This document shows, piece by piece, positions 6,012 to 37,900 of a stretch of 64,000 bases of DNA. This stretch comes from a virus. The stretch lies in the IMG/VR virus record IMGVR_UViG_3300042567_000999, positions 19,427 to 83,426 of that record. One strand, 5' to 3'. The translations under genes and the position numbers were made by a program. The notes below the pieces were generated by a model. The model did not search any database and was not told the origin of the DNA. It saw only the letters and a list, made by a program, of their open reading frames with translations. How positions within the stretch are numbered: position 1 is the first letter of the stretch; the number at the start of each line of letters is the position of its first letter.

Positions 6012-6019
6012 AATATTTT

Positions 6020-7666: not shown

Positions 7667-7667
7667 A

Positions 7668-10029: not shown

Positions 10030-10051
10030 TAAATTATTCTATATAATATTT

Positions 10052-10669
10052 TTAAAGTCCTGTTGAACCAAAACCGTTACTATTTCTATCTTTTTCTTTG
10101 ATTTCCGAAACTTTAACTAAGTCTACCCATCTACCCCCAATTACAGGACAAAGAACTGCCTGAGCAACTTTTTGACCTTTTTCAATTTTTACTTTTTTGT
10201 TTGTGGTATTAAAAAGTATAACTTTGATTTCACCTTGATACCCACTATCAACAGTTCCTGGTGAATTTAATACAAACAAACCTTGATTTAGGGCTAAGCC
10301 ACTTTTAGACCTAACTTGGACTTCGTAGTTTTCACCAATATCTAATCGTATTCCTGTTGGGACTAATGCCCTTGAATTAGGTTGAATCCAAACTTCTTCA
10401 GACGCTCTTAAATCAAATCCTGAATCAGATGGGTAAGCGTAAGAAGGATTTTCATTATCAGAGTCATTAACAAAGTTTAAGTTGACTTTAGTAAACTCAA
10501 CTTCATTTGACTCGTGCAAATTTTCAAAATGGGTGTTTAAATCATCAAGATTAACCCCCATTGATTTTAAAAATTCTGATGGGTTATTCATATCTACATC
10601 TCCTAATTTGGATTGTAGTTCTTTTAACATTTTAAATTGGTCTTTAGCCTCTCTTATTCTATCAAACAT
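10052..10669 (-). CDS. dut: dUTPase with N-terminal helical extension
   Basis: The C-terminal 145 residues form a trimeric dUTP diphosphatase with all five motifs in order: SDSGFDLRAS, RSKSGLALNQ, GTVDSGYQGEIKVILFN, KGQKVAQAV and the C-terminal arm RNSNGFGSTGL. It hydrolyses dUTP to dUMP, protecting phage DNA from uracil and feeding dTMP synthesis. Residues 1-57 are an extra charged, helical extension not found in the standard enzyme; its role is unknown. The gene overlaps the upstream exonuclease gene by 1 base. The enzyme call is firm, the extension unexplained. Confidence 0.93.
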   Translation of the reverse strand: MFDRIREAKDQFKMLKELQSKLGDVDMNNPSEFLKSMGVNLDDLNTHFENLHESNEVEFTKVNLNFVNDSDNENPSYAYPSDSGFDLRASEEVWIQPNSRALVPTGIRLDIGENYEVQVRSKSGLALNQGLFVLNSPGTVDSGYQGEIKVILFNTTNKKVKIEKGQKVAQAVLCPVIGGRWVDLVKVSEIKEKDRNSNGFGSTGL

Positions 10670-11397
10670 TATTTTAAAGATTTTAATTGTAAAATTGCGT
10701 TTATTAATACATCTACATCTTTTTCACAGTATTCTGCGATTTCTTGTAGTCTGTTGTGGTTCCAATAAGCTTCATGAACCATTCCACCATTAATTGGTCC
10801 GTCTTTAGGTGTAGGTATATCTAAACACGTACACATTAAATCTAATGAGCCAATTGCCGTATATGCTCCATATTGCCAAATTTCTTTTGTATCGATGGCT
10901 TTAATTTCCCAAGGCTTCGTATCGTATGAAGGAAGAATCTTAGATGGCATAATCCCATTGATAATCATTCGTTTTGCCAACATGGGGATATCAAAGTTTT
11001 TAAGGTTATGACCACAAAGATAAAAATCCAATTTATGACATCTATTCAAAAGGTCTCTTACTTCTAATAATAACTTGTGTTCGTCATCGTTAGAAAAAGT
11101 TTGTTTTTTAATCTCACCATTATCTAAAACAAATGCCATAGACACACAAACTATCTTAGCAAATTCAGGAACCAAGGCTGTTCGCTTAGCATAGACATCA
11201 TCCATTTTTTGCATTTCTTCTTCAAGACCATTTGTTTCAACATTGTCTTCAGGAAACCTTTTTAAGAACCAATCAAAGTATTTAACAAATTGTTCAGCAA
11301 TTTTAGGATGACTTTGTTGACAAGAACGCCAGTCTTTACATAGACCAACAGTTTCAATGTCAAGGAAAAGTATTTTGTTAATAGGTATGTTTATCAT
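10669..11397 (-). CDS. DnaQ-like 3'-5' exonuclease
   Basis: A 242-residue RNase H-fold exonuclease related to the proofreading domain of family B polymerases. Exo I is KILFLDIETVGL near residue 10 with the DxE pair, Exo II is LCGHNLKNFDIPMLAKRM, and Exo III is EYCEKDVDVLINAILQL with the terminal Asp. It is a stand-alone enzyme, separate from the polymerase at 18128-20956, which carries its own exonuclease domain, so it more likely trims DNA or RNA in recombination, repair or host DNA turnover. Overlaps of 4 and 1 bases tie it to the glycosyltransferase and dUTPase genes. Confidence 0.82.
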   Translation of the reverse strand: MINIPINKILFLDIETVGLCKDWRSCQQSHPKIAEQFVKYFDWFLKRFPEDNVETNGLEEEMQKMDDVYAKRTALVPEFAKIVCVSMAFVLDNGEIKKQTFSNDDEHKLLLEVRDLLNRCHKLDFYLCGHNLKNFDIPMLAKRMIINGIMPSKILPSYDTKPWEIKAIDTKEIWQYGAYTAIGSLDLMCTCLDIPTPKDGPINGGMVHEAYWNHNRLQEIAEYCEKDVDVLINAILQLKSLK

Positions 11398-12608
11398 TTT
11401 ATTAAGGATTTGTATAGTTCTGCTCTGTCTCTTGTAACTTTATTTAAATCGTAAGTGTCTTTAACGGTTTCATATAATCTTTGACCTAAATCGTAAGCCC
11501 AATTAGGATTATCAATTAATTTTTTCATGTATTTTGCCCAATCACTATGACTTCTCGCCTCATCAACTAATAAAGCATTACCGTCTGTAAATTCACCATT
11601 TTTCATCGCATGTTTTAAATCTACAGTGTAAGGACCAACGTTAGACGCTATGATTGCCTTTTTATAAAAACCTGCTTCAATTACTTTTAATTGTGATTTA
11701 ACTCTGTTAAAAATATGGTTTTTAATTGGTGCTAAAGATACGTCAAACCATTTGTAGTTATTAGCGTAACTTGTTACGGGTTTAGTCCAAACACGATTGT
11801 AGAATGGATTTGTATCTGAAATATAATCCTCTTGTGAGAATTTCATTAAATAGTCTTTATGTTTATCGTCAACTAATTTATAGTTGTCGGTAAAAATTTC
11901 CTCATAACGAGCCCAAACTGTTTCTTCAGGTTTAATATCTCTTTGTTTTTGTTCTCCCGTTTGTTGATTAATTTCGGTCACAGTCCCTCTAATATCAAAA
12001 CCACAAAGATACATACTAAATTTATCTTTTAGTGGAGTTAACTTATTCATAGTACCATCTAAAAGTTTAAGGTCATGTAAGTGAGATGAACCACCTAACC
12101 AACCAAATCTTAGTTTATCTGAAGGTTCTGTTTTGGAGTTAAATTGTGATTCTTTTGGATTAATTGCGTTTGGTAACACATAAACATTTTTGTTGAATTT
12201 TGATATTTCATTAACAAAAAATGATGTAGTAGTTGTTACGTGACCCGCAACTTTTAAGTTCTCAATAATTTTTTTGTGTAATTGTGTTTGAATTACCATT
12301 TGGTGAACGGGGTGTTCTTTTGTTGGTAACCAATAATCATCTAAGTCCATTATCGTTACAATTCCTAATTTATTTAATCTTTGGATTAAATTAACTGAAT
12401 TATCATAGTCATGACCAATGGTTCTATGGAAATGAACTATATCATAATTTTTCCAATAATTTAAATCATTTACCTTTGGTTCATAATCTATATCGACATG
12501 GAATTCATCTGAGTGGTTATTTTGTAAACAAACATGCGGGTCCACACTTCTAAATTTACCCACTCCCGTTTTGTCTGATGGTAATACTAAAACTTTTATT
12601 TTATTCAT
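11394..12608 (-). CDS. GT4-like GT-B glycosyltransferase
   Basis: A 404-residue GT-B fold protein. The N-terminal lobe has NYDIVHFHRTIG and TIMDLDDYWLPTKEHP, the second has KLRFGWLGGSSHLHDLKLL, and a C-terminal KVIEAGFYKKAIIASNVGP matches the acidic donor-binding helix of GT4 enzymes. The family adds sugars from nucleotide-activated donors to glycans. It is separated from the main sugar block by exonuclease and dUTPase genes yet belongs to the same leftward overlapping transcript. It is the first gene after the terminator at 12648-12675. Confidence 0.75.
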   Translation of the reverse strand: MNKIKVLVLPSDKTGVGKFRSVDPHVCLQNNHSDEFHVDIDYEPKVNDLNYWKNYDIVHFHRTIGHDYDNSVNLIQRLNKLGIVTIMDLDDYWLPTKEHPVHQMVIQTQLHKKIIENLKVAGHVTTTTSFFVNEISKFNKNVYVLPNAINPKESQFNSKTEPSDKLRFGWLGGSSHLHDLKLLDGTMNKLTPLKDKFSMYLCGFDIRGTVTEINQQTGEQKQRDIKPEETVWARYEEIFTDNYKLVDDKHKDYLMKFSQEDYISDTNPFYNRVWTKPVTSYANNYKWFDVSLAPIKNHIFNRVKSQLKVIEAGFYKKAIIASNVGPYTVDLKHAMKNGEFTDGNALLVDEARSHSDWAKYMKKLIDNPNWAYDLGQRLYETVKDTYDLNKVTRDRAELYKSLIK

Positions 12609-12647
12609 TTGATACTTTTTACATAAAAGTAAGATATATAAAATAAA

Positions 12648-12675
12648 AAATCCACCCCTTTTCAGAAGTGGATTT
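12648..12675 (-). terminator. Rho-independent terminator after gene 12696-13292
   Basis: On the minus strand an 8-base stem AAATCCAC/GTGGATTT closes a loop of about 12 bases and is followed by a T-rich run (TTTTTTATTTTAT). It lies 20 bases after the stop of the 198-residue gene and 40 bases ahead of the glycosyltransferase start, so it separates the structural block from the sugar operon. Confidence 0.75.
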
Positions 12676-12695
12676 ACATTAGAATAAATTTTATT

Positions 12696-13292
12696 TTATT
12701 GTAATTTTTTAATTTTCGTAACTTTACCAACAAACAAATGATTACCTACTTTAAATTGTAATGTATCGTTTGAATTACTTGTGGACTCAACTAACATACC
12801 CGCTTCTTTTAATTCTTCTCTAACTACATCTTTAACCGTATCTCTAACGACATCACGTATCATATTTTTCATTTCGTTCATGTCAAAATTCTGTGTAGTT
12901 TTTTGTGTTTTTACCGTTTCATTAACAACCTGTGGTTGTTGTTTTGAACCCATACCCATTAATCTTTGGGCTCCCTCAATAATATCATTACTAATTACAG
13001 AACCCCCATTCATAGAACTTGGTTGTACTATCGGTTGTTCTATCATTAATCTTTTGATTTCATCGGGTAGTTTTGAGTTTTTAATTCTACTTTCTTCTAA
13101 AGGTTGTGTTGGGTCAAAATTTGGTCTTTCTTGAGCAACTTCACCCATATATTCTTGTGGAATGTTGTATGATGCGTTTGGTGTATCAAAATTTTCTAAT
13201 ACTGGATTGGGAGCTACCGAACCTCTGTTAATACCACTATGGGCATCCATAATTTTTTTTGAAATTGCTAATTTTTGCATTAAATCTGACAT
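12696..13292 (-). CDS. Uncharacterised protein with C-terminal coiled coil
   Basis: A 198-residue protein without a recognised family. The first 110 residues are polar and low in structure (rich in Asn, Pro, Gln). Residues about 140-170 form a charged amphipathic helix (MIRDVVRDTVKDVVREELKE), likely a coiled coil, and the end is a small beta-rich piece (FKVGNHLFVGKVTKIKKL). Such a layout is seen in phage scaffold or head-core proteins, but nothing decides that. It is the last gene of a five-gene leftward block and is followed by a terminator. Confidence 0.5.
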   Translation of the reverse strand: MSDLMQKLAISKKIMDAHSGINRGSVAPNPVLENFDTPNASYNIPQEYMGEVAQERPNFDPTQPLEESRIKNSKLPDEIKRLMIEQPIVQPSSMNGGSVISNDIIEGAQRLMGMGSKQQPQVVNETVKTQKTTQNFDMNEMKNMIRDVVRDTVKDVVREELKEAGMLVESTSNSNDTLQFKVGNHLFVGKVTKIKKLQ

Positions 13293-13293
13293 G

Positions 13294-13692
13294 TTATGCT
13301 ATATTTTCTGTGTTGTCGAATACTGCGTTTAATATCACACTCGACATTAGTTTATCACCATTAGGGTTGTAATTAGGTCTCATTTCATAAAACGTATCAC
13401 CTTGCGGTTGATAAGTCAATATCTTTACTAATTTAAAAAACCTCCAACCAGGAATTGGGTTATCTCTTGTGACCTTTGAATGTGAAGACCCCTGTATTTC
13501 CCAAGCTCGTAATACTAACTCACCTTTTTTAGAATACCCAACACAAACAGGTTCGATATCACGATAACCTTTACCATACTCATCACCATCGTAGTTAATT
13601 GTAATTACTTTTTTATTTCTAATACTATCCTGAACCACATCTAGATTAGCGGCTTCAAGTATAAGTTGAGAAAGGTTATTTAATAACTTCAC
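13294..13692 (-). CDS. WYL-like domain protein
   Basis: A 132-residue protein whose core resembles a WYL domain: VITINYDGDE, RDIEPVCVGYSKKGELVLRA and GWRFFKLVKI follow the family's usual order of a first strand, the EP-x-G-x-L/R centre, and the RxF-x-L-x-x-I close. WYL domains bind nucleic acids or ligands and normally follow a helix-turn-helix, which is missing here. The N-terminus (LLNNLSQLILEAANLD) is a short amphipathic helix. The gene overlaps its upstream neighbour by 4 bases and is 1 base from the next. Whether it is a regulator or a virion-packaged protein is not clear. Confidence 0.5.
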   Translation of the reverse strand: MKLLNNLSQLILEAANLDVVQDSIRNKKVITINYDGDEYGKGYRDIEPVCVGYSKKGELVLRAWEIQGSSHSKVTRDNPIPGWRFFKLVKILTYQPQGDTFYEMRPNYNPNGDKLMSSVILNAVFDNTENIA

Positions 13693-13982
13693 GATACCGA
13701 GTAATATGGGTTATTTGGTGAAAATTTATTTATTTTTAAATCGTCTTTTCTTTCTGCAATATCTGTAGAAGTTCCCGCGGCTTGGTTATAAACATCTAAC
13801 TCACCACCTGTACCTCTACCAATTTTATCACCATTTGCGATAGCATCGGGGTGAACTGTTGAATATTGGTCTGCAGGATTAAAATCATTTCTTGGAAATA
13901 ACTTTTTTCTTTGTTCTTCCGCAATCTTACTTAATTGATTATCAGGTTGCGAAAAATCCATTTTATCTGATTGGACTGCCAT
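13689..13982 (-). CDS. Small uncharacterised protein
   Basis: A 97-residue polar protein with no recognised domain, no membrane segment and no cysteine. It ends with KFSPNNPYYSVS. It overlaps the gene before by 1 base and the WYL-like gene by 4 bases, so it is translated as part of the leftward block at 12696-15179. Function unknown; a small virion component is possible because the block shares the late-type upstream element at 15193-15200. Confidence 0.5.
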   Translation of the reverse strand: MAVQSDKMDFSQPDNQLSKIAEEQRKKLFPRNDFNPADQYSTVHPDAIANGDKIGRGTGGELDVYNQAAGTSTDIAERKDDLKINKFSPNNPYYSVS

Positions 13983-14446
13983 TATAATATTTTTTGATAT
14001 AGTTTATTCATTAATTTTATTTCTTGTTCCACCCTTACATCAATGTCACTATTTGTTTTTGAGTGACTATCTAAAGGATTTTTAATAAGTTGGTCTTTTG
14101 TGTGATTATCAATAAATTGGTTTTGCATCCCTGCATCCATCTTTATTTTTTTACCACTACTATCGTTGTCTCTCCAAACTCTTAAAACCTCATCACACCA
14201 ACCCTTCATTCTATCACCACCGTTTAAAATAAAAGGTGCGTCTTCTTTATTACCACTATAACTTTCAAACCAACTTTTAATTCTTTTTATTTGTTGGTAT
14301 GTTGCTTGTTTACCTTTTCTTAATTGTTGGTTTCTATTATACCCTTCCACATTTTGATTCCCTTCGACTGAATTAAAACAATCATTAAGGTGTTTTACCA
14401 ATGAGTCTGGTATTATTGCAATTCTATTATATAAGTTACTATTCAT
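13982..14446 (-). CDS. Uncharacterised helical protein
   Basis: A 154-residue protein, mostly helical and charged, with segments such as KQATYQQIKRIKSWFESY and GWCDEVLRVWRDN and a C-terminal helix EQEIKLMNKLYQKIL. No known motif was recognised. It overlaps its upstream neighbour by 8 bases and its downstream neighbour by 1 base. The operon context points to a virion or head-assembly role but this is inference. Confidence 0.5.
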   Translation of the reverse strand: MNSNLYNRIAIIPDSLVKHLNDCFNSVEGNQNVEGYNRNQQLRKGKQATYQQIKRIKSWFESYSGNKEDAPFILNGGDRMKGWCDEVLRVWRDNDSSGKKIKMDAGMQNQFIDNHTKDQLIKNPLDSHSKTNSDIDVRVEQEIKLMNKLYQKIL

Positions 14447-15179
14447 CTTTAATAATTTGAATTAATTCTTTTACGGAAATACCGTGTTCTTTAGCCAATT
14501 TTTTAATTGATTTAATGTTTCTTACTAATAATGGATTGATTAAATCTTTTATTCTTCTTTTTTCGGTATCGTCATCTTTATTTTTATCCATGATAACATC
14601 CTCACCAATTTCCTTTTCTTTTAAGATAGGTCTTCCTACAAATCCTTTTTCATTTTTGTACGGTGATTTTTTATCTCTTTCAGGACTTTTACCAAATTCA
14701 TCTTCAACTCTTTTTTCTGCCGACTCATCATCCATTTCTAATTCATCTTTGAAATAATCCAAGGTTTCTTCGGCATCCATATTCATAGTGTCCTTATAAC
14801 CAAAAGCTTTAGACATGTCAGTTTCTTTAACATATCCTTCACCATAGTACCCATACCAACCTCTTAACAATGGGTCTCTTGGGTTTCTTGCTGCAGGTAT
14901 AATTTGGTCAGTAGTTTTAGTTCCGATACCAGCACTTGCCGGTGAAAGAATAGGAATATCAGATGATAACCACGTTCCGTCGTCATCAACAAGCTCAGTG
15001 ACTTCCTGTTCTGTAGGTTCATCTTCAGAAGATTTTAATTTTTTTAAAAATATTTCGTGGGACTTGCAAGGCATGTATTTTCTTTCACCATCTTCGTTGT
15101 GATAGTGAGAGCCAACACATCCCAAAGTTTTAGCAACTCTTTCCGCCCTTTCTTCTGTAGAGTATTTATATGTCTTCAT
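14439..15179 (-). CDS. Uncharacterised protein with N-terminal Cys/His cluster
   Basis: A 246-residue protein and the first gene of the leftward block. Near the N-terminus it has AKTLGCVGSHYHN followed by KYMPCKSHEIF, giving a C-x4-H-x-H then C-x2-H arrangement that could bind zinc. The middle is strongly acidic (about residues 120-190, many Asp and Glu), and the C-terminus (IKSIKKLAKEHGISVKELIQ) looks like a small helix-turn-helix or SAP-like helical pair. The family is not recognised. The start is placed 13 bases downstream of a TATAAATA element (read on the plus strand), part of the divergent control region at 15180-15230. Confidence 0.5.
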   Translation of the reverse strand: MKTYKYSTEERAERVAKTLGCVGSHYHNEDGERKYMPCKSHEIFLKKLKSSEDEPTEQEVTELVDDDGTWLSSDIPILSPASAGIGTKTTDQIIPAARNPRDPLLRGWYGYYGEGYVKETDMSKAFGYKDTMNMDAEETLDYFKDELEMDDESAEKRVEDEFGKSPERDKKSPYKNEKGFVGRPILKEKEIGEDVIMDKNKDDDTEKRRIKDLINPLLVRNIKSIKKLAKEHGISVKELIQIIKDE

Positions 15180-21290: not shown

Positions 21291-22412
21291 TTAAATTACT
21301 GTGTATGGGCTTTGGAAAGCTCTTAACTTTAATAATTTGTTTAAGTTCTCCGCTTGTAAAGCCTTTTGTTCCATCATTTTTTCCGGACGTAATCTTTCGA
21401 GTCTTGTTTTAAGTTCTTCCCACAACATAGCCTTTTCATCTTTCGCTTCTGTAGCCAAAGACGTATAATCCATAGTTAATTCAGAGTCAGGTGTTTTAAG
21501 ATTACCACTGAACTTACCTCTAACTCTACCTAAAGTTTCTTTACAATATGCGGTAAACCATCTCCTAACCCACGTTTGTGCAGGTGGATTAAGTTTATCC
21601 CATCTCATTTTATCTAATGGGACATCAGATGGGAGTCTTACTACGTCTGGATTTTTTGCTAAACAATCTTCTCTATCAAACGTATCATAATACCAATACC
21701 AAACTCTATTACGATTTCTTCTCATATTACCAAAATCAAATTTACCTCCAGGAACATTCATTAAGTGAATCGCCTTTTTTCCTTCAGGTAACGCTGTAAT
21801 TCTATATGTTAAATCACCTGTAATAATTCTTCTTTTAATACTGATGTCTGACATCCTTAATAAGATATCAAATGCTGGAGTAATGAAATAGTTACCCGTA
21901 GTCCCGAGTTGTGAAAACCCAGCACCACCACCTAAACCAATACCACCCATACCCCCAAATCCACCCATAAATGGGTCAAAGTATGCCGCATCTAATTCTG
22001 AACGAGCAAACCAAAGAAGTTCATTTATTTCTCTACCTGCAGGTATTTCATAAATTTGTTGGTTATCAATTAATTCAATATAATCTTTCTTTAAAACCCA
22101 ATCACCACCAGCTTGTAAACCCACGATTTTTGAATACGCATATGTGTATTGAGTTTCCCAATCCATACTACGAGTGGATAATGCTCTTGTAATTGATTGT
22201 TCATCAAGGTTTAATCCATAAACAGAAGACCACTGAGATTCTATTAACCAATCTTGGACGTGCTGTTCATAATCTTCGATTGAAAGTTCTAATAAAGAAT
22301 CCATCATTTCGTCCTCTAACTCTACAGAACGTAATGGTGCCCCTAAAAGATTTCGTATTCTTTTATAAAGTTTACTTCTGTCGGGCTCATTTATGATTAC
22401 AACGTTTGACAT
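21291..22412 (-). CDS. Neck-like virion protein (T4 gp13-like candidate)
   Basis: A 373-residue protein whose layout resembles gp13-type neck proteins of T4-like phages: an N-terminal helical part (RIRNLLGAPLRSVELEDEMM, then LLELSIEDYEQHVQDWL), a central beta region, and a C-terminal helical part with WVRRWFTAYCKETLGRVRGK followed by an ELKTRLERLRPEKMM segment. Such proteins join the head portal vertex to the tail. A glycine-rich insert (GGFGGMGGIGLGGGAGF near residue 150) is unusual and probably a flexible loop. The gene is preceded by a TATTTATA element 11 bases upstream of its start. The gp13 assignment is by pattern and moderate. Confidence 0.5.
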   Translation of the reverse strand: MSNVVIINEPDRSKLYKRIRNLLGAPLRSVELEDEMMDSLLELSIEDYEQHVQDWLIESQWSSVYGLNLDEQSITRALSTRSMDWETQYTYAYSKIVGLQAGGDWVLKKDYIELIDNQQIYEIPAGREINELLWFARSELDAAYFDPFMGGFGGMGGIGLGGGAGFSQLGTTGNYFITPAFDILLRMSDISIKRRIITGDLTYRITALPEGKKAIHLMNVPGGKFDFGNMRRNRNRVWYWYYDTFDREDCLAKNPDVVRLPSDVPLDKMRWDKLNPPAQTWVRRWFTAYCKETLGRVRGKFSGNLKTPDSELTMDYTSLATEAKDEKAMLWEELKTRLERLRPEKMMEQKALQAENLNKLLKLRAFQSPYTVI

Positions 22413-22423
22413 AGATTTTTTAA

Positions 22424-22431
22424 TATAAATA
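22424..22431 (-). promoter_or_regulatory. TATTTATA element for the neck-like gene
   Basis: Read leftward this is GATATTTATATT, ending 11 bases before the start codon at 22412. It has the same core and near-identical spacing as elements ahead of the tape measure and other late genes. Confidence 0.5.
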
Positions 22432-22449
22432 TCTTATAAATTATTTATG

Positions 22450-23538
22450 TTACGATTTTCTAATTTTTAACTGAGTAGTGTATAGGTCATTTACAAACCC
22501 CCAATTCACAACTTTCCAAAAATTTGAAATGTATTCATCTCTTTTATTTTTGTATTTTAAGTAATACGCATGTTCCCATAAGTCTAAACCTAATAATGGG
22601 TATCCATTTTCTTTTTCGGTATTCATTAAGGGATTGTCTTGGTTGGATGTTGTAACAATTTTTAATCTATTATTTTTTGTTAAAATTAACCAAGCCCATC
22701 CTGAACCAAATTTAGTTTTTGCTTCTTCACTAAATTGTTCTTTGAATTTTTCAAATGAACCAAAATCTTTTTCTATTTTAGAAAGTATTGGGCCAGATAT
22801 TTCTTGTTTTTTTGGAGATAACATTTTCCAAAACAAAGCGTGGTTAAACGCACCACCACCATTATTTTTAACTACCTTATTAAATTTAGAAATCTTTTCT
22901 ATAATTTCCTCAAGGTCTAAATCCTTACCTTTAACTTTTTCTAATTCAACATTAAGTTTTTCAACATATCCTTTGTAGTGTTTGTTGTAGTGGGTTTTCA
23001 TCGTTTCACTGTCAATAAATCTTTCTAACTCATCATAATTGTAAGGTAGTTTATCGATACTTATTTTTTTTATTTCACTAATTAACGTTTCTTTGGAATT
23101 AAACTCAACCTCCAACAAAGATTCAATCTCATTAATTTTTTTTGAAAAAGGTTTGTATATTGATTTTTCTTTTGATTTATTATTTTTCTCAAACTTTTTC
23201 ATTTCTTGTGATGCTTGTGCACTTGCTTCATCTTCATTTTTTCCACCGATATCTTTTCCTTTTTTTCTTTTCAAAATAGTTCTTTGGTGTTCATGTGACC
23301 ATTCATGCGCCAATGTTCTTAAAACATCTCGATTCAATCTACCTTTAACTAAAATTTTAAGTTTGTTTTTGTTGGTTCTTGAACCAGTTGTCATTTCGCC
23401 AGTTCTTTTATTTTGAAATAGAATATCAATATCATCCTTTAATGGATAATTTTTTTTTAGTTGAGTTATAAAATCGTCAATTAATACTTTATCACCCTTT
23501 GTAGGTTCAACTCCAATATATTCAATATTCACTTCCAT
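22450..23538 (-). CDS. HEWSH metallopeptidase-like domain fused to manganese-type superoxide dismutase
   Basis: A 362-residue fusion. Residues about 165-360 are a complete Fe/Mn superoxide dismutase: metal ligands H183 (THYNKHYKGYV), H233 (FNHALFW), D319 and H323 (GLDLWEHAYYLKY), plus FGSGWAWL. NNGGGAFNH and SNQDNPLM carry the Gly and Gln placements typical of Mn rather than Fe enzymes. It would convert superoxide to peroxide and oxygen. Residues 1-115 form a different domain with LAHEWSHEHQ (HExxH at 78-82) and a following NEDEASAQAS that resembles the third-ligand helix of gluzincin-type peptidases. A lysine-rich linker joins them. Its gene sits between neck-like and helicase genes on the leftward strand. 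Confidence 0.88.
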   Translation of the reverse strand: MEVNIEYIGVEPTKGDKVLIDDFITQLKKNYPLKDDIDILFQNKRTGEMTTGSRTNKNKLKILVKGRLNRDVLRTLAHEWSHEHQRTILKRKKGKDIGGKNEDEASAQASQEMKKFEKNNKSKEKSIYKPFSKKINEIESLLEVEFNSKETLISEIKKISIDKLPYNYDELERFIDSETMKTHYNKHYKGYVEKLNVELEKVKGKDLDLEEIIEKISKFNKVVKNNGGGAFNHALFWKMLSPKKQEISGPILSKIEKDFGSFEKFKEQFSEEAKTKFGSGWAWLILTKNNRLKIVTTSNQDNPLMNTEKENGYPLLGLDLWEHAYYLKYKNKRDEYISNFWKVVNWGFVNDLYTTQLKIRKS

Positions 23539-23542
23539 GATA

Positions 23543-23550
23543 AATAAATA
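23543..23550 (-). promoter_or_regulatory. TATTTATT element near the SOD fusion gene
   Basis: Read leftward the sequence is GATATTTATTTATC, with two overlapping TATTTAT cores, only 0-4 bases before the ATG at 23538. It lies in the 12-base gap after the helicase gene stop. The closeness to the ATG makes a classical promoter doubtful and a leaderless or translational role possible. Confidence 0.35.
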
Positions 23551-25314
23551 TCATCGGATGCCGGAAATCATATTTAACATTTCTTCTATTGAAGATGCCT
23601 CATCAAACATATCATCACCCATTACTGTTGAAATGATTTTCTTTTTTCTATTTAATATGTCGTAAATGGCTCCTTCTATTGTGTTTTCAAATAAAGGGTA
23701 ATAAACTGATGTTGAATTTTTTTGACCAATACGGTGTGACCTATCTTCGGCTTGCGAATGTTCGGCAGGAACAAAAGATAAATCATTCATAATTACGGCT
23801 TCCGCTGAGGTTAAAGTGATACCAACACCAGCAGCTTTAAGGTTACCAACAAATACTTTGATTTTATCGTTTGTTTGAAATTCATCAACAGAATTTTGTC
23901 TGTGAAACTTAGAACAACTACCATCTAAATAAACTGCAGATTTACCAAAATGGTTATAGATTTCATTTAATGTGTCCGTGAAGTTTGTAAATATGATAAC
24001 TTTTTTACCTTGCTCTATAATGTTTTCCGCTAACTCGATTGTGTTTTTAATTTTTTCTTTAGCGATTACTTTTCTTACTTTCATTAGTTTTGAAAACTGA
24101 ATGGTAAGTGATGTCGACTCTTCAGGGTTTTGGTCATACCAATCAAAATATTCACCAACTAACTCTTCGTAGTCTTTTGATTTTAGTCTTAAATAAACGG
24201 GAGTAATAATTTTTTCAGGTAAATCCAAAACCTCTTCTTTTAATCTTCGTAGAATATGTGTTTGGGTTCTTTCCCTTAACTCATCAAGATTAGATGCTCC
24301 TGTAACATTCCATACCTTTCTTTTCCCAACACTAAATTGGAATCCGTTACAATACCTTTTAGCGTAAGCCATCCAATTCATTGCTACGGGACTATCAACA
24401 AGGTTTAATAAATTATAATAGTTCATAGGTCGAGAAGTCATTGGTGTTCCCGATAATAACCATACTCTATTTGATTTACTTGCAATGTCGTTAGCGATTT
24501 TTGTTCTTTGTGCTTGTGGATTAGAAATCATATGTGCCTCATCCATGATTACCAAATCAAAATTAATTTTCATTATTTCTGACTTTTCGGTTTCTTTAGC
24601 GTCATGGAAATTTTTTAAGATGTCGTAGTTAACAATAACAAAATCATGTTCATCTGAAAATTTCTTACCTTCTGCAATATATACGGTTCTATCTGAATAA
24701 TTTGCAATCTCCCTTTCCCAATTTATTTTTAAAGATGCTGGACACACAATCAAAACTTTTTTGGCTCCCGTTTCTAAAGCTGCGATGATTGTTGATGTAG
24801 TTTTACCAAGACCCATATCATCCGCCAAAATAAACTTTTTATTTTTTACAAGTTTCTCAATTGCTTCTTTTTGGTGTTCCATAGGTGGTCTATGGGTATA
24901 TTTTTCATAATCGATAGAAATGTTTTTGACTTCGTTATCTTTTAGTAATGCAGATTTTGGCATCCAAAAGTCGTGTAAAGTTTCTCCCGAAAAGATTTTA
25001 CCCCAAATATGATAAGCCTTATCCTTTTCAACTAACAACTTCTCGACATAAATTTCTGATGGTTCTTTGGTATACATCTTATCTTCCATCAGTTTTTTAC
25101 CAAAATAAGAGTCTAACTTGACCCATTTTTTAGCAACTTTTGGTTGTAGGGTGTGATAATTATTGATGTAATCCGCCTGAGGTCTTGTAGGTACAAAAGA
25201 CTTACTATTTTGTTTTTTGTGTTTTAAATTAAGGATGTAGTTATTTGACCCTTCATAATCGTCTAATATTAAAAGGGCTTTTGATTCGGGTGTTTTAGGC
25301 ACAAAATCTTCCAT
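23551..25314 (-). CDS. SNF2-family DNA helicase/translocase
   Basis: The start at 25314 (MEDFVPKTPE) is preferred; a longer frame to 25500 would overlap the divergent gene at 25370 and add a non-homologous hydrophobic leader. The 587-residue product has Walker A ADDMGLGKTT at 164-173, Walker B/DEAH at 258-261, WLLSGTPMTSRP (motif III), and motif VI QAEDRSHRIGQ, which together are diagnostic of SNF2 proteins close to SMARCAL1. Such enzymes translocate on duplex DNA and anneal or remodel forks. In T4 the related place is taken by UvsW, a different superfamily 2 helicase, so this may act in fork regression or recombination-dependent replication. Confidence 0.88.
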   Translation of the reverse strand: MEDFVPKTPESKALLILDDYEGSNNYILNLKHKKQNSKSFVPTRPQADYINNYHTLQPKVAKKWVKLDSYFGKKLMEDKMYTKEPSEIYVEKLLVEKDKAYHIWGKIFSGETLHDFWMPKSALLKDNEVKNISIDYEKYTHRPPMEHQKEAIEKLVKNKKFILADDMGLGKTTSTIIAALETGAKKVLIVCPASLKINWEREIANYSDRTVYIAEGKKFSDEHDFVIVNYDILKNFHDAKETEKSEIMKINFDLVIMDEAHMISNPQAQRTKIANDIASKSNRVWLLSGTPMTSRPMNYYNLLNLVDSPVAMNWMAYAKRYCNGFQFSVGKRKVWNVTGASNLDELRERTQTHILRRLKEEVLDLPEKIITPVYLRLKSKDYEELVGEYFDWYDQNPEESTSLTIQFSKLMKVRKVIAKEKIKNTIELAENIIEQGKKVIIFTNFTDTLNEIYNHFGKSAVYLDGSCSKFHRQNSVDEFQTNDKIKVFVGNLKAAGVGITLTSAEAVIMNDLSFVPAEHSQAEDRSHRIGQKNSTSVYYPLFENTIEGAIYDILNRKKKIISTVMGDDMFDEASSIEEMLNMISGIR

Positions 25315-25358
25315 GATATAATATAATATAATAAAATTAAACAAAAAATCAATCAAAG

Positions 25359-25366
25359 TATTTATA
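25359..25366 (+). promoter_or_regulatory. TATTTATA element ahead of the neck/tail block
   Basis: AAAGTATTTATAGGT lies directly before the ATG at 25370, with three bases between. It is nearly identical to the leftward copy at 15193-15200 (AGTATTTATAGG). The region 25315-25369 serves two divergent genes; nothing else recognisable is in it apart from an AT-only run. Confidence 0.5.
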
Positions 25367-25369
25367 GGT

Positions 25370-25885
25370 ATGGCAGATAATAGAGTTCCAATAACCAGAC
25401 TTAATAAGTTTTTCTCTGAAGAAGACTTTAACTTAGATATTTCTATAGGCGACGAATGGTTAGGTGGAGATATGAATTTTACCCTTGTTTTATACCGCAT
25501 CGATAGACAAAGAACTATTAGTGATGATGTGTACGGTGAAACATTAGAAGACGGAATTCAATTCTTACCACCTATTGAGTTTAAGGGGTATGTTCAAATT
25601 GAAGCTTCAACTAATGTTGATTACGGGTCATCAAGATTATCACAATCAGAACCTGGAAATCTTAAAGTTGGTGTTTATCAAAAACAACTTGAGGAGTTGG
25701 ATATTGATATTAATTTTGGAGACTATATTGGTTATTATGAAACAGAAGATAGAGTTAGATACTATACTGTTGTGAATGATGGTCGTGTGTTAAGTGATAA
25801 TAAACATACATACGGGGGGTATAAACCTTTCTATCGTTCCATATTGGCTTCTCCTGTCACAGACAATGAATTTAAAGGATTATAA
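25370..25885 (+). CDS. Virion neck/tail-completion protein candidate
   Basis: A 171-residue, mainly beta protein of unrecognised family. It is the first gene of the rightward tail block and ends 2 bases before the gp15-like gene, in the position where T4-like genomes keep neck and tail-completion genes. Motifs such as DEWLGGDMNFTLVLYRIDRQ and FGDYIGYYETEDRVRYYTV suggest a compact beta barrel. It probably acts at the head-tail joint. Assignment is from position only. Confidence 0.5.
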   Translation: MADNRVPITRLNKFFSEEDFNLDISIGDEWLGGDMNFTLVLYRIDRQRTISDDVYGETLEDGIQFLPPIEFKGYVQIEASTNVDYGSSRLSQSEPGNLKVGVYQKQLEELDIDINFGDYIGYYETEDRVRYYTVVNDGRVLSDNKHTYGGYKPFYRSILASPVTDNEFKGL

Positions 25886-27172: not shown

Positions 27173-27180
27173 TATTTATA
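27173..27180 (+). promoter_or_regulatory. TATTTATA element for tail sheath gene
   Basis: GATGTATTTATATATAAA lies 33 bases before the sheath ATG at 27214. The same core with exactly the same 33-base distance precedes the tube gene (31577-31584), the two most strongly expressed tail genes, which is a good argument for a late promoter with a normal leader. Confidence 0.6.
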
Positions 27181-27213: not shown

Positions 27214-30200
27214 ATGGCATCATCTAATAAGGTTTTCGTTTCTCCAGGTGTTTACACATCAGAAAGAGACTTAACGTTTGTGGCTCAGAGTGTTGGTGTA
27301 ACTACTTTAGGTGTAGTAGGTGAAACCCTACAAGGACCCGCATTTGAACCTATTTTTATAACAAATTTTGACGAGTTCCAAACTTATTTTGGAGGAACAA
27401 GTCCTGAAAAATTTGTTAATACACAAATTCCAAAATACGAATTGGCATATATTGCTAAATCTTACTTATCACAATCAAATCAATTATTTGTGACAAGAGT
27501 CTTAGGTTTATCAGGTTACGACGCTGGACCATCTTGGTCTATTGTAACAATAGGTAACGTTAACCCCGCAACTATACAAGTAACTGGAACAACAGGACCT
27601 GTTACTGTATTATTCTCAGGAAATACAGGAGGAACCGTAACATTATTGTCAGTCCCATCAACACTTAATGTTAATGGTAATTTTTATTTACCTTACACGG
27701 AATTTAATGGGGGAACCTCAACAATAGCATCAGATTTACAAACTTATATTTCCAGTCAAATAAATCTTTACTCTACAAGTGCCGCAACTTCAGGTTCAAC
27801 TTCAGTATTCTGGGGGACAGTAACCGCATCAACATTTACTAGTACAACCGGTGTAACATTAAATGGTACTGGTGTAGTAACATCTTACAGTGAAAACTTT
27901 GGTGTTGGAAATATAACGGGAGCAACAGCATCATCATTAAGTGCTCAAACAGTAAATGACTCATGGTATTATGGGTTATTTAATTACTATCAAGGTACAA
28001 ATGACGTTAACACATATTTTGGACAAGGTATGGGGGCAACTATGTCAACAATATCAGGTAGTTCATCAACAGGTGTATATTCAGGTTCAGTAAGTTTCTT
28101 TACTACATCTTATTCAGGGGCACCTTACACAACATACGATGATATGGTTGTTGCAACTTTAAGGTCAAGAGGGGTGTCTACATATAGTAGTACAATAAAA
28201 GGACCTTCCTATCAAGTATCAGGTTTAACTGACGTTACTATGAATTGTACGGGAGCTTACTCGGCAGTAACTAAAAACCCTTATGAAACATTCCAAATTA
28301 GTGGTGTGACATATGACGGTAATGATTTCTCTTTTGAAACTTCTATGTTATCGACATCTAAAAATTATTTACGTAATGTATTTGGAGCAACTAATTTTGG
28401 TAAAAACAGAACTGAAGTTCCTTTATTTATCGAAGAGACATATCCCGCACTTTTACAAACAGGATATAGAGCAGGTCAAATTAGAGGTTTATATTGTGAA
28501 TTAGTTGATTTACCTGGTGTTAGATATTCACCAACTACAGAATCAATTGCATTCTATTTAGAACAATTCCAAACTCCAGAAACACCTTTTGTTGTATCTG
28601 AGTTAAGAGGTAATACAGTTTATAAATTATTTAAATTTGTTCTTATTTCTGACGGTAATTCTGCTAACACATACGTTAAACTTTCAATCGGAAATGTATC
28701 ATTTGCTAATGGAACATTTGATGTGTTTGTAAGAGACTTTTTTGATAACGACCAAAATGTTAGAGTTTTAGAAAGTTTTACAAATTGTTCATTGGACCCA
28801 ACTCAAAATAATTATGTTGCTAATAAAATTGGAACATCTAACGGTGAATATGAAGTTAAGTCTAAATATATAATGTTAGAAATGAGTGATGAAGCTCCTA
28901 CAAACGCACTACCTTGTGGATTTGAGGGTTACATTATGAGACAATATGCTAACGCAACTCCACCATTTGTACCTTACAAAACTAAATACTACACAGCAGG
29001 TGAAGTTATCTATAACCCACCATTTGGTTCGACGAGTGGAGGTGATAACCCAGTTATCTCAAGTGGTGAAAATAAAAGAAGAGCATACTTAGGTATATCT
29101 AATATATCAGGTTTTGACTACGACTTCTTTCAATATAAAGGAAAACAAATACCAAATAATATCGCTACTGATACAACAGGACCATCTTGGGGTTATTTAA
29201 CTAAAGGATTCCACATGGATAGCGGAGCTACTGTTGTAACGGTATCAAGTTCATATGTAACTTCAGGTCAATCGGCATTTGAAGTAGGTGCGGGGTCATT
29301 TAATTCTGAACCTAGTGATAATACTAATCCATACTACAATTTAATTTCACGTAAATTTACTTTATTAGCATATGGTGGATTTGATGGTTGGGATATCTAT
29401 AGAGAATATAGAACTAATAGTGACACATTCGCATTAGGTCAAACAGGATTTAAATTTGGGGCAGCAAGTTCAGTAACATTCCCAACAGCAACAGGATGGG
29501 GGGCGTTCAAACAAATTTCAGGACCTAACCAAGAAACTTGGGCTAATACTGACTACTACGCATACAAATGGGGTCAATCAACTTTTGCAAACCCTGAATC
29601 AACAAACATCAACGTATTTGCAACACCTGGTATTGATTATGTTAATAACTCAAACTTGGTTGAAGATGCTATTGATATGATTGAAACAGATAGAGCAGAT
29701 TCAATTTACATTGCAACAACACCTGACTTTAATATGTTCTTACCATCTTACCAAGACATCTCTGAAGGTTTAATTTACCCACAAGAGGCGGTAGATAATT
29801 TAGATACAACAGGTATAGATTCAAATTACACAGCAACTTACTATCCTTGGATTTTAACAAGAGATACAGTTAATAACACACAAATTTATATTCCAGCAAC
29901 TTCAGAAGTTGTTAGAAACTTAGCGTTAACTGATAACATAGCGTTCCCTTGGTTCGCATCAGCGGGTTACACAAGAGGTTTGGTAAATGCTATTAGAGCA
30001 AGACGTAAGTTGACACAAGAAGATAGAGATGTATTATACAAAGGTAGAATCAACCCAATTGCAACTTTCTCTGATGTGGGTACAGTGATTTGGGGTAACA
30101 AAACAATGCAAGTTAGAGAATCTGCACTTGACAGAATCAACGTAAGAAGATTGTTACTACAAGCACGTAAATTGATTTCAGCGGTAGCCATCAGATTGTT

Positions 30201-30441
30201 GTTCGAACAAAACGATAACAAAGTAAGACAAGACTTCTTGGATTCAGTTAACCCAATCTTAGACCAAATTAGAAGAGATAGGGGTTTGATTGACTTTAGA
30301 GTTCAAGTATCTAACACACCTGAAGATTTAGATTCAAATACATTGACAGGTAAAATCTTCTTGAAGCCAACAAGAGCGTTAGAATACATCGACATCGAGT
30401 TTGTCATTACACCAACAGGCGCGTCTTTTGACAATATCTAA
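27214..30441 (+). CDS. Tail sheath protein (T4 gp18-like)
   Basis: The contractile sheath subunit, 1075 residues against 659 in T4. The N-terminus KVFVSPGVYTSERDLTF is the classic sheath opening, followed by VGETLQGPAFEPIFITNFDE. The C-terminal part has YIPATSEVVRNLALTDN, PWFASAGYTRG, NPIATFSDVGTVIWGNKTM and INVRRLLLQARKLISAVAIR, the conserved core that forms the helical sheath lattice. The middle (about residues 110-480) is a large Ser/Thr/Gly-rich insertion exposed to the outside, probably surface domains. A GC-rich hairpin follows the stop. It works with the tube at 31618 and the baseplate to inject DNA. Confidence 0.95.
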   Translation: MASSNKVFVSPGVYTSERDLTFVAQSVGVTTLGVVGETLQGPAFEPIFITNFDEFQTYFGGTSPEKFVNTQIPKYELAYIAKSYLSQSNQLFVTRVLGLSGYDAGPSWSIVTIGNVNPATIQVTGTTGPVTVLFSGNTGGTVTLLSVPSTLNVNGNFYLPYTEFNGGTSTIASDLQTYISSQINLYSTSAATSGSTSVFWGTVTASTFTSTTGVTLNGTGVVTSYSENFGVGNITGATASSLSAQTVNDSWYYGLFNYYQGTNDVNTYFGQGMGATMSTISGSSSTGVYSGSVSFFTTSYSGAPYTTYDDMVVATLRSRGVSTYSSTIKGPSYQVSGLTDVTMNCTGAYSAVTKNPYETFQISGVTYDGNDFSFETSMLSTSKNYLRNVFGATNFGKNRTEVPLFIEETYPALLQTGYRAGQIRGLYCELVDLPGVRYSPTTESIAFYLEQFQTPETPFVVSELRGNTVYKLFKFVLISDGNSANTYVKLSIGNVSFANGTFDVFVRDFFDNDQNVRVLESFTNCSLDPTQNNYVANKIGTSNGEYEVKSKYIMLEMSDEAPTNALPCGFEGYIMRQYANATPPFVPYKTKYYTAGEVIYNPPFGSTSGGDNPVISSGENKRRAYLGISNISGFDYDFFQYKGKQIPNNIATDTTGPSWGYLTKGFHMDSGATVVTVSSSYVTSGQSAFEVGAGSFNSEPSDNTNPYYNLISRKFTLLAYGGFDGWDIYREYRTNSDTFALGQTGFKFGAASSVTFPTATGWGAFKQISGPNQETWANTDYYAYKWGQSTFANPESTNINVFATPGIDYVNNSNLVEDAIDMIETDRADSIYIATTPDFNMFLPSYQDISEGLIYPQEAVDNLDTTGIDSNYTATYYPWILTRDTVNNTQIYIPATSEVVRNLALTDNIAFPWFASAGYTRGLVNAIRARRKLTQEDRDVLYKGRINPIATFSDVGTVIWGNKTMQVRESALDRINVRRLLLQARKLISAVAIRLLFEQNDNKVRQDFLDSVNPILDQIRRDRGLIDFRVQVSNTPEDLDSNTLTGKIFLKPTRALEYIDIEFVITPTGASFDNI

Positions 30442-31576: not shown

Positions 31577-31584
31577 TATTTATA
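31577..31584 (+). promoter_or_regulatory. TATTTATA element for tail tube gene
   Basis: GGATATATTTATAATAAA ends 33 bases before the tube ATG at 31618, the same spacing as at the sheath gene. The A-rich leader between them lacks a Shine-Dalgarno sequence. Confidence 0.6.
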
Positions 31585-33096: not shown

Positions 33097-33104
33097 TATT
33101 TATA
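33097..33104 (+). promoter_or_regulatory. TATTTATA element for tape measure gene
   Basis: ATAACTATTTATAAATAAA ends 11 bases before the ATG at 33116. The longer form ATAACTATTTAT recurs at 57901-57910 and 60293-60304, so the element has an extended upstream part in these three. Confidence 0.5.
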
Positions 33105-34956: not shown

Positions 34957-37900
34957 ATGGAGAGTCCACTATCATTTAATTCAAGTGAAAATTTTAGAAA
35001 AAAACTTTTGGTGCGAAATCTTCCACCATATAAGATAGAGAATGCCTTTTCACAAGATGGAAAACCTGGCTCTAACGAATTTAATATAAATGATTTAGTA
35101 CCGATAGATTCCCCAAGTGTTGAACAAATAGGAAATCAACAAGAAAAAGTTTTATTACCAATTAATCAATATGGTCCACAAACCAATGCAAAAGATTATG
35201 GCGATATAGTCCCAATCAATAATAATAAAAATTATAAATCAAATGAAGGTGAGTATGGTTATCCTGATTCAATCGGAAGTGATTTAGAAGTTATTGGAAA
35301 CAACACCGAAAAACAAATTATTATTAAAAATGTTTATAGACCTGAAAACGGATTATCCGATTTTGGCTCAACCGCATGGTATATAAATAACGATAAAGTA
35401 ATTAGTACTATTGGTGAGGGTGAGTATACAGTTCAAGATACGGTTGGAGGTGGTTTAGAAACTACCGCTAATTTAGATAGACCTTCATTGATATCTAATA
35501 ACCAATATGGTCCTGAGATACAAACAAACACTCAAGTACCAATCAACAATAATCTTCAAACAAATCCAAATGAAGGTGAGTATGGTTATCCTGATACGGT
35601 AAATAGTGAATTAGAAAATAAAGGTGAAACTGATAGACCGGTATTATTTGCTATAAATCAATACGGACCCGATAATCTACCAAACACGTCGGTAGTAATT
35701 AACCAAAATTTACAAACAAATTCAAATGAAGGTGAGTATGGTTATCCTGATACTGTAGATAGTCAGTTGGAAATGGTTGGTGTTGATGAAAGAAAACCAA
35801 ACTTTTTACAAAATCCATGGGGTCCCGAAGGAAGTCAAAGTACCGAAGAGGTAGACCCTTATAGAAAACAAAAAAATTTAATAATACCACAAGGAAATTA
35901 TTTAGATGAAACCGATACGTATGGTAATGAATTAGAGTTTGTAAGTGGAGTAAAAGAAACACAAGCATACCTATCTAACAAATACGCAACAGGGGACGGT
36001 GAATATGACCCTACTGAGTTTAAAACACTCCAAACGGTAGCTTTACAATTACCTTATGCTAATTCAGATAATACATTTATATTCTTACCTTCAACATATA
36101 CTCCATATAGTATTTTATTAAGTGATAACCCTTCAGGGTCTGATGGTTCATTAACACAAGATTCTGATTTGGCTAATATTGGCGCAAAAAGTTTAAATAA
36201 AGAGTTCAAACATAGAGTCGCATTAGAACTGTACCAACAGACGTTAGGTCAAATAAATTTATTTAGTGGTAACGTTAATCCTGAAACGGGTGAAATATCG
36301 GCAAAACCAAACACAGACCCGTTTAACGCTATTGGATTGCTTACGGGTAATGTGCCAATAATTGCTAGAAAATATAATATCACAACACCCGACTTTTTAT
36401 TTGGTCAAGGTATTAATTTTGCAGCGAAACTTGCAGGCCTATATTCACCGTATTCATATATACCTGGTGAAATTTTTGACTACCCTGACCCGATAGGTAA
36501 TGGACCATATGAAAATCCATTATCTTTAATTGGTGGGGCTTTAGGTTCTTTGTTTAGTGCATTACAACCTGCAAATCAATCATCTTCAGAATTACTTGTT
36601 GAATATACATCAATAGCTACAAGAAAACTTCTTTATGACCAATTAAAATATAACCCATATAGGCCAAATTATAAAATTGGTAACAACCTACTAGCACCTG
36701 CTGGTGTATTTTATATTGGAGATAGAAAAAATCACATTATAGAGTTAGTTTCTCCGGCTTCAGAATTACCATATGCGAAAGACGGAAAAACCTCAGCAAT
36801 GGGACCTGTTCTATCTTACTCAAGTATGGGTAAACTATATGAAGGTGACCAGTTAGATGAAACACAGTTTGGTATAAATACTAGAAACTTTTATGGTGCT
36901 GGTGCTAATAAAGATGGTGTAAAATGGATTGGTGCTAGCATTTTTGGAGGTTTAACTTGGACGGGTAGTAAAAGTCCTGAAAAAGATAATAATCCTGGTA
37001 TTGGTAAATTAGTAGGTCGAGGAGGTGAACAATTTGAAGATAATAGTGAATTTAATTTTGGTAGTTTAGTTGGATTTGATAGTAGTAAATCAACTAGTAA
37101 GAGTTTTACTCCGGGGTCTATTTTAGATGTTACTCAAAAATTAGTAGATGCGGGACAAAGAAGTACAAAACCCCAAGAACACGTTGGTACGGCAATCAAT
37201 CAGGTATCTAAAGTATTTAATGACGGGTATCAAGAATTAACAAAAGGTTCAAGAGTTGTGAGATATACCACACCAAATTCTAAACCACAAGGAACTAACA
37301 CACCACAAGGTTATGAATATTGTAGAGTCTTTACAAAAGATAGACCATACTACACTTACGACGAACTTCAAAAACGTGATGGAAACATTAGAGGTTATGG
37401 AAATTCAGTTTTAGATAATACTTGGAATTTAAATATTGCGCCTGTTGATGGGTATAGTATTAAAGATGGTCGTGTAAAAAAATACATGTTATCATTAGAA
37501 AACTTAGCATGGAGAACATCAAATAAAAAAGGTTACACTTATGATGATTTACCGGCTTGTGAAAAAGGTCCTAATGGTGGTAGGATTATGTGGTTCCCGC
37601 CTTATGACTTATCATTTAATGAGAATATTTCAACAGGGTGGAAGGACAATACTTTTTTAGGTAGAACTGAACCAATATACACGTATACTAATTCAACAAG
37701 AAAGGGTAATGTAAGTTTTAAAATAATTGTTGACCACCCATCAATAATGAATTTATTGGTTGAAAAAGAATTAGCAAATGTTTCAAATAACGGAGAAATA
37801 ACTCAAATTATTGATTCTTTCTATGCTGGATGTACAAAATACGATTTATGGGATTTAGTTACTAAATTCCCTATGTTTACACCAAACGATATTTTTGAAG

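Follow-up and report, generated by a model that had tools for sequence, protein, structure and literature searches.

A superoxide dismutase fused to a zincin-like domain in a T4-type phage lineage: a candidate for head packaging and prohead protease processing

Why would a tailed phage join a superoxide dismutase (SOD) to a metallopeptidase-like domain and keep the gene next to that of a neck protein? The question is raised by a 362-aa open reading frame (ORF) at 22450..23538 on the minus strand of the window, the 64,000-nucleotide stretch of viral DNA analyzed in this study. The ORF was found to be real and intact, with an ATG start and its stop codon within these coordinates, and to encode a zincin-like domain, a linker, and an Mn/Fe SOD. 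An earlier note on this DNA, which described an SOD behind an N-terminal HExxH domain, was therefore right in its central claim, and the same fusion is present in 81 proteins, representing 57 distinct full-length sequences. Our preferred interpretation, to which we give a probability of about 0.5 and which is built on sequence comparison, is that the product may be a late, head-packaged, protease-processed multi-enzyme protein of a T4-type phage.

Occurrence of the fusion and its genomic context

A scan of viral contigs returned at least 566 relatives of the 362-aa ORF, of which the best 80 were kept, all with both domains. With the protein of the window's own record they make up 81 proteins that all align across both domains, and these were collapsed to the 57 distinct ones for the residue-column counts. 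Since the best 80 were ranked by their similarity to a two-domain query, the generality of the fusion cannot be read from them. An artefact of frame or assembly, a scenario raised by the earlier note, is excluded by the presence of full-length relatives with 56-100% identity to the window protein on other contigs, the full-length frame recurring on all 80 contigs kept. In one relative (L182), the frame is split into two ORFs. The search for the domain pair that the note had suggested thus located it on 80 other viral contigs. The note knew of no such fusion, and searches of open-licence PMC papers, a scope that holds few subscription papers and preprints, found neither a published SOD-metallopeptidase fusion nor an SOD packaged in a tailed phage; the fusion is nevertheless not unique, as the relatives above indicate. 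Among 28 phage records with similarity to the SOD, none covers 80% of the query, and several of them appear to be host DNA. For the window, the possibility of a contaminating host gene was ruled out, since the loci examined have the gene flanked by a phage helicase gene and a neck gene.

The gene upstream encodes an SNF2/UvsW-like helicase (23551..25500, minus strand), and the gene downstream a protein resembling neck or head-tail adaptor proteins (21291..22412, minus strand; phrog_211, 1.8e-10). The locus continues with a 110-aa gene and a convergent DNA polymerase gene, and the genes of p171, p346, and the tail sheath diverge from it. Neighbors were counted in 41 of the 81 rows, namely the window and 40 of the 80 loci. 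The helicase gene is directly upstream in 36 of these 41, with one or two small ORFs intervening in the other 5, and the neck gene follows in all 39 rows in which the contig continues. The arrangement is shared by a related subfamily without the zincin-like domain (S-D, described below), in which the helicase gene is immediately upstream in 80/80; of these 80 loci, 68 continue with the neck gene, 9 with a stand-alone module B, and 1 with another ORF, and in 2 the contig ends.

Some other features of the window deserve mention. As listed, the helicase ORF overlaps a divergent 171-aa ORF (25370-25885) by 131 bases, and its listed start is probably wrong, since the helicase ORF is shorter in several relatives (e.g., 587 aa). 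The tail sheath ORF (27214-30441) is 1,075 aa long, and its best sheath match covers only residues 784-1073. Two giant proteins of 2,034 and 2,321 aa are encoded at 34957-41061 and 41368-48333, the former without a PHROG family match at E 0.01. A minus-strand island of sugar and surface-modification genes (65-15179) contains aminotransferase, methyltransferase, glycosyltransferase, and reductase genes mixed with those of a dUTPase and an exonuclease.

The SOD domain

The SOD domain comprises residues 161-350 (22489..23058, minus strand) and is defined by Pfam, by solved relatives, and by residue conservation. Pfam assigns Sod_Fe_N to residues 161-241 (7.5e-23) and Sod_Fe_C to residues 249-350 (9.7e-42), both above the curated cut-offs (141.6 and 81.2 bits versus 20.9 and 27). 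The nearest solved structures are Mn or Mn/Fe SODs (best 5n56, 4.4e-60). All four metal ligands (H183, H233, D319, and H323) are invariant in the 57 distinct relatives, as are H187, Y191, W281, E322, and Y326 and the Gly229/Gln300 signature; we take the second group to be the second shell and these positions to match those of the E. coli enzyme. In the S-D subfamily, the ligand columns are at least 97% conserved in 61 proteins. A strict regular expression for the active site matched 159 of 175 distinct proteins, and where the active-site part was visible, the 16 misses failed at non-ligand positions or in spacing; the active site was therefore judged by alignment columns instead of the expression. 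Judged by its sequence, the ORF carries an intact Mn/Fe SOD with an Mn-type signature, in agreement with what the note had seen in the ligands and the Gly/Gln positions. In these respects (full domain, ligands, second shell, and signature), it resembles bacterial Mn/Fe SODs such as 5n56, from which it differs by being joined to phage modules.

The N-terminal zincin-like domain

The N-terminal domain (residues 1-117; 23188..23538, minus strand) contains the motif HEWSH at residues 78-82 (23293..23307, minus strand) and Glu102, the presumed third metal ligand (23233..23235, minus strand). H78, E79, W80, H82, E102, and A105 are invariant in the 57 distinct relatives, and the pattern HEWxH-x19-E is present in 115/115 distinct proteins that hold this domain. 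Thirty-five representatives with less than 85% identity to each other were used for the further analyses. The AlphaFold2 model based on them had a pLDDT of 92.4 and a pTM of 0.88, with HEWSH on a helix of residues 70-87 and E102 on another of residues 100-119. All 50 matches listed by VIA-align are metallohydrolases with the zincin fold (Z 7.1-9.4; rmsd 2.8-4.2 over 108-122 residues), with 25 chains at Z ≥8 among these 50; we take them to be M1 aminopeptidases, YbeY-type proteins, and Wss1. The model and the invariant residues therefore bear out the zinc-peptidase-like N terminus that the note had proposed, and the structure prediction that it had suggested for the HEWSH motif gave the same answer.

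Other searches were less telling. Foldseek gave no significant match to the model (best E 0.08): its first two rows are glycosyltransferases with probabilities of 0.28 and 0.33, and the highest probability, 0.82, belongs to an M61 peptidase. In a Pfam search with the whole window protein, residues 1-117 had no match at E up to 1, and with the domain alone the best was DUF6055 (14.7 bits versus a cut-off of 27). Across the 35 members, the best E values were 3.3e-4 for DUF6055, 0.023 for SprT-like, and 0.037 for M78. Searches of Pfam, PHROG, and PDB sequences thus produced no match of weight, and the assignment to a named peptidase family was dropped; having no curated Pfam peptidase match, the domain is left outside the named Pfam peptidase families. 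On the strength of the model, we consider the predicted zincin-like domain, with HExxH and a downstream Glu, to be genuine.

Stand-alone homologs of this domain occur in the Synechococcus phages S-SRM01 (gp257) and B23 (gp332), with about 30% identity to the domain of one relative (L052) and 26-28% to that of the window. They keep HExxH and the Glu of the fusion's zincin but, unlike the fusion, are separate hypothetical-protein genes of 132 and 124 aa with no SOD. A further stand-alone homolog is found on the viral contig L229, and one at the edge of a Flavobacteriales MAG contig is the only hint of a host.

Architecture of the family

The SOD is what the proteins of the conserved helicase-SOD-neck locus have in common: some carry the zincin and others lack it, and behind the SOD there may be one of four different C-terminal modules. 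Many relatives continue for a further 340-470 aa or so after the SOD, in three kinds (A, B, and C) without mutual match, and a fourth, module D, occurs in the S-D proteins, which have no zincin. The distinct proteins number 33 for ZS, 16 for ZSA, 21 for ZSB, and 44 for ZSC, which are not abundances because the loci were fetched with module queries; for S-D, 61 are distinct among 80. The window protein is of the short form, without such a module. A search of the rest of the window's 83-kb record for modules A, B, and C found none, and A and B were likewise missing from the rest of seven records with short-form SODs, empty results that carry little weight; module C had one match there, a separate 336-aa frame in record G006. 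This frame (L367; G006:C1:23080-23589) lies about 3 kb from the short-form SOD gene (L042), on the other strand.

In each of modules A-D, a D...(Q/E/C)xK arrangement can be recognized by eye from the conserved columns. For module C, D188, Q202, and K204 are invariant in 23 sequences, taken for the alignment from 45 distinct ones. The module-C model had a pLDDT of 78.6, and the top four Foldseek chains were I-Ssp6803I (E 5.3e-3 to 2.1e-2, probability 0.99). VIA-align placed I-Ssp6803I at Z 7.8, below the caution level of 8, and the model also aligned with the SPARDA effector and Hjc resolvases, all of which we take to be PD-(D/E)XK-type nucleases. Pfam found nothing above cut-off in modules A, B, and C, and a PDB-sequence search with the module-C alignment found no match. 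The four modules may thus be PD-(D/E)XK-nuclease-like, with the motif seen by eye in all and a fold model for C; as no module-C row reached Z 8, the assignment has support but not proof.

It is worth mentioning several unusual arrangements. On L229, a module-C relative (L229:2806-3795) and the stand-alone zincin gene (L229:5624-6007) are separate and 1.8 kb apart, possibly an unfused state. In L272:2566-4110, L273:2503-4011, and L274:1123-4107, module B has another N-terminal partner (MEFKKRDLL..., containing a hydrophobic stretch of the PIPIP/PLPIP type), and the last of these proteins (995 aa) has a second HExxH (FAHEIQHML). A unit of about 110 aa (ALKWLNKKFGDLTPxx...) stands between the SOD and module C once in L080:6057-7460 and twice in L213:1153-4026. 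The 634,780-bp uncultured phage LR745206.1 (L163) has a 24%-identity match to module A.

The linker and its prohead-protease-type sites

A linker of about 43 aa (residues 118-160; 23059..23187, minus strand), a point absent from the earlier note, separates the zincin-like domain from the SOD and seems functionally important. The prohead protease gp21 of T4 recognizes L/I-x-E and cuts after the Glu (PMC9026906). It removes N-terminal peptides of IPI-III, Alt, gp23, and gp24, and IPI is injected (PMC9958956). In the fusion family, this motif is enriched between domains and not within them, as the observed and shuffled counts by segment indicate. Per 100 aa, it occurs 6.28 times in linker 1 (57 proteins) and 5.6 times in linker 2, which follows the SOD (25 proteins). 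The corresponding values are 0.45 for the zincin, 0.75 for the SOD, and 1.10 for the C-terminal modules (24 proteins). Per protein, the observed and shuffled counts are 2.82 and 1.68 in linker 1 and 1.96 and 0.69 in linker 2 (25 long forms), and within the folded parts they are 0.53 and 1.49 (zincin), 1.42 and 1.79 (SOD), and 3.54 and 4.28 (C-terminal modules).

Just before the SOD lies LISE (residues 152-155; 23074..23085, minus strand), a site of the prohead-protease type whose Glu has [IL] at P3 in 57/57 fusions and 61/61 S-D proteins. In the S-D proteins, the linker is the N terminus itself (on average 29 residues after the Met) and has 2.70 motifs versus 1.46 after shuffling; its other two near-invariant Glu columns have [IL] at P3 in 57/61 and 60/60. 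Among the ZS-type sequences, one of six invariant Glu columns, that of the linker's E155, has [IL] at P3 throughout. Seven neighbor families served as a control: of their 58 invariant Glu columns, 7 have [IL] at P3 throughout (threshold 100% conservation, versus 97% for S-D). In S-D itself, 3 of 9 near-invariant columns have it throughout, and a fourth in 57/61. Of these four columns, three belong to the linker and the remaining one to the catalytic Glu of DLWEH (61/61), which makes the P3 pattern by itself unspecific. Residue 1 of the free SODs 5n56, 5x2j, 6qv9, 1jr9, and 1n0j aligns to residue 157 of the query, and that of 6gsc, 1mng, and 1d5n to residues 154, 156, and 158, respectively. A cut after E155, as placed by these alignments, would leave an SOD that starts like free SODs.

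Taken by itself, the window protein has no excess of L/I-x-E (6 found versus 6.0 expected). Stretches of 45 aa with at least three motifs are present in 22 of the 63 ORFs of the window's record, and the pooled count for all 63 (326) is slightly higher than after shuffling (262). Because these counts are unspecific, the case for processing rests on conservation among relatives that are not independent of one another, and such a pattern could also arise from a linker conserved as a helix.

Prohead protease and capsid protein in related records

An S77 (T4-type) prohead protease was found in 5/12 and 9/15 related records (3 records being in both sets) and in 6/6 of those above 250 kb. One record with the protease, G001, has an SOD fusion 100% identical to that of the window. 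The protease match is absent from 7/12 and 6/15 records, the window's own among them, all of which may be fragments. The window's record (G000; 83 kb and possibly a fragment) encodes a gp23-type capsid protein, and in 6/6 capsid proteins read there is a LINE|A site at residue 60. Processing of T4 gp23 is described as removing 65 residues (PMC9958956), a point that the capsid site resembles. With L/I-x-E at the presumed processing point in every fusion and S-D protein and the protease in related records, the family has the sequence features that would be expected of substrates of a T4-type protease.

The upstream TATTTAT element

Two overlapping copies of a TATTTAT-type element lie just upstream of the start codon (23540..23550, minus strand). 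In all relatives whose start is clean (66/66; 38 distinct upstream sequences), the element begins 14 to 8 nt ahead of the SOD gene; the other 14 of the 80 loci had no ATG at locus position 5001 or were too short. In S-D, it is found 30 to 11 nt before the start in 43/46 distinct upstream sequences and in 0/80 of a control stretch 61-120 nt upstream, a region of helicase coding sequence. The canonical T4 late promoter TATAAATA was considered and rejected: in the 80 bases upstream, it was matched exactly in 2/66 and with at most one mismatch in 20/66. The note had thus been right about the adjoining neck and tail genes and about a conserved upstream element, and it was wrong about the element's nature, which is TATTTAT and not TATAAATA.

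Within the window, TATTTAT is found in the 60 nt before 11 of 46 genes and its reverse complement ATAAATA before 6 of 46. It precedes the sheath, tube, neck, 600-aa, 2,034-aa, 171-aa, and 813-aa genes, whereas the capsid gene of the window's record lacks it in the preceding 60 nt. TATTTAT or TATTTATA stands in sense orientation before several structural genes, e.g., at 22424-22431, 27173-27180, 31577-31584, and 33097-33104. The 8-mer TATTTATA is not over-represented in the window (16 versus 14.7 expected), and a scan for sigma-70-type sites gave 26 versus 24.8 expected. TATTTAT/TATTTATA may be a late promoter of this phage group; its position is what points to a late-gene element.

Discussion

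We suggest that the fusion would be made together with the structural proteins and that its [IL]xE-rich linker, which is the very N terminus in S-D, would act as a capsid-targeting propeptide directing it into the prohead core. There, a gp21-type prohead protease would cut at L/I-x-E and release the zincin, an SOD of the usual length, and, where relatives have one, the nuclease-like module. The released enzymes would enter the next host cell along with the DNA, where the SOD would remove superoxide in the new host, or in the virion, and the zincin and nuclease would act on targets of the host or of competitors. The domains with their conservation and modularity, the conserved sites, the locus that is shared, and the occurrence of the protease gene in relatives come directly from the sequences. 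From them we infer late expression, packaging, cleavage, ejection, and the activity of the SOD, zincin, and nuclease-like modules. A packaged, processed, and ejected protein would be the simplest account of the conserved domains, the swappable enzymes, the sites at the domain borders, and the neck-gene neighbor. Among the functions that the note had listed, that of a virion enzyme gains most, owing to the invariant prohead-protease-type sites of the linker and the T4-type protease in related records.

By analogy, the best reading is that the fusion works like the internal head proteins of T4 and the polyvalent proteins of phages. The T4 internal proteins IPI-III and Alt likewise have L/I-x-E sites and accessory functions (PMC9958956, PMC9026906). 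The related records also resemble T4 in having a T4-type protease and a gp23-type capsid protein, so that the likeness is one of sites and genes. In the fusion, however, the sites lie between domains as well as at the N terminus. The T4 internal proteins have an N-terminal targeting peptide, whereas in the ZS form the zincin is ahead of the presumed propeptide, which counts against packaging.

Polyvalent proteins are found in phages and conjugative elements, and capsid packaging is assumed for the phage members (Iyer et al. 2017, PMC5512222). As described there, they combine several unrelated enzyme domains in one polypeptide in mosaic architectures, and their zincin-like MPTase domain consists of a three-stranded sheet with an N-terminal helix and C-terminal helices, of which the first carries HEXXH and the second a Glu. 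The fusion has this kind of architecture, a zincin plus an SOD and, in relatives, a nuclease-like module, and its zincin also has the HEXXH helix with a Glu in the next; the likeness is to the described layout and not to the 12 clades of PMC5512222. It differs in that the SOD is a constant core, the C-terminal modules are swapped, and prohead-protease-type sites lie between the domains. The word "superoxide" is absent from the main texts of this survey and of a jumbo-phage survey (PMC7824862). A precedent for a late, virion-carried viral SOD is the enzyme of chlorovirus PBCV-1, described as a packaged late gene product linked to lower superoxide at infection (PMC7019647), which differs in being of the Cu/Zn family and from a eukaryotic virus.

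Until now, SOD genes of freshwater phages have been interpreted as aids to the host under oxidative stress (PMC6802176), and PMC12542629 interprets such genes similarly. The fusion could accordingly be a cytoplasmic auxiliary metabolic gene, in which a late SOD acts against superoxide in the infected cell, the linker only spaces the domains as a helix, and no part of the protein is packaged. Such a role would suit the intact active site, and Vibrio phage 2.275.O has an annotated free-standing SOD gene. We nevertheless consider it rather unlikely, because it does not account for several features: an [IL]xE that is invariant ahead of the SOD in two subfamilies, a motif that is rare within folded domains, a linker that forms the N terminus of S-D proteins, and zincin and nuclease-like modules attached at a locus beside a neck gene.

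Far less probable is a part for the protein in building the neck or head, in which the SOD fold and the zincin would act as a scaffold or maturation protease for head-tail joining and dismutation would be a secondary matter. The downstream gene is neck- or adaptor-like, and zincins have been proposed to process phage proteins (PMC5512222, PMC7824862). A scaffold, however, would not need the catalytic and second-shell SOD residues that are kept, and the modules are swapped freely, with the zincin missing from S-D proteins. We also give little credence to a metal-binding, non-proteolytic HExxH domain (a YbeY-like hydrolase or a regulatory domain) in a neutral fusion kept by hitch-hiking, for which the YbeY-type 1oz9 (Z 9.3) aligns as well as peptidases do and the Foldseek result speaks, because HEWxH-x19-E is invariant, a Glu third ligand at x19 spacing fits gluzincins and not the HExxHxxxxxH of YbeY, and the two cyanophage stand-alone homologs keep HExxH and the Glu.

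Returning to the packaged and processed protein, we put forward a fuller version more tentatively. In this T4-type phage lineage, encountered here in environmental DNA, seemingly common, and with records of up to 322 kb, a head-packed, active SOD may be the core of a protease-matured polyprotein that is injected with interchangeable zincin and nuclease effectors and counters an oxidative response triggered by infection. If this is true, the phage SODs of this lineage would be armour or weapons delivered at time zero, beyond the part of metabolic helpers, and the bacterial oxidative response to phage entry would become directly testable. Conserved L/I-x-E at domain junctions would offer a template for spotting head-packaged enzymes in uncultured phages, and the swappable nuclease-like modules would join the repertoire of candidate injected effectors.
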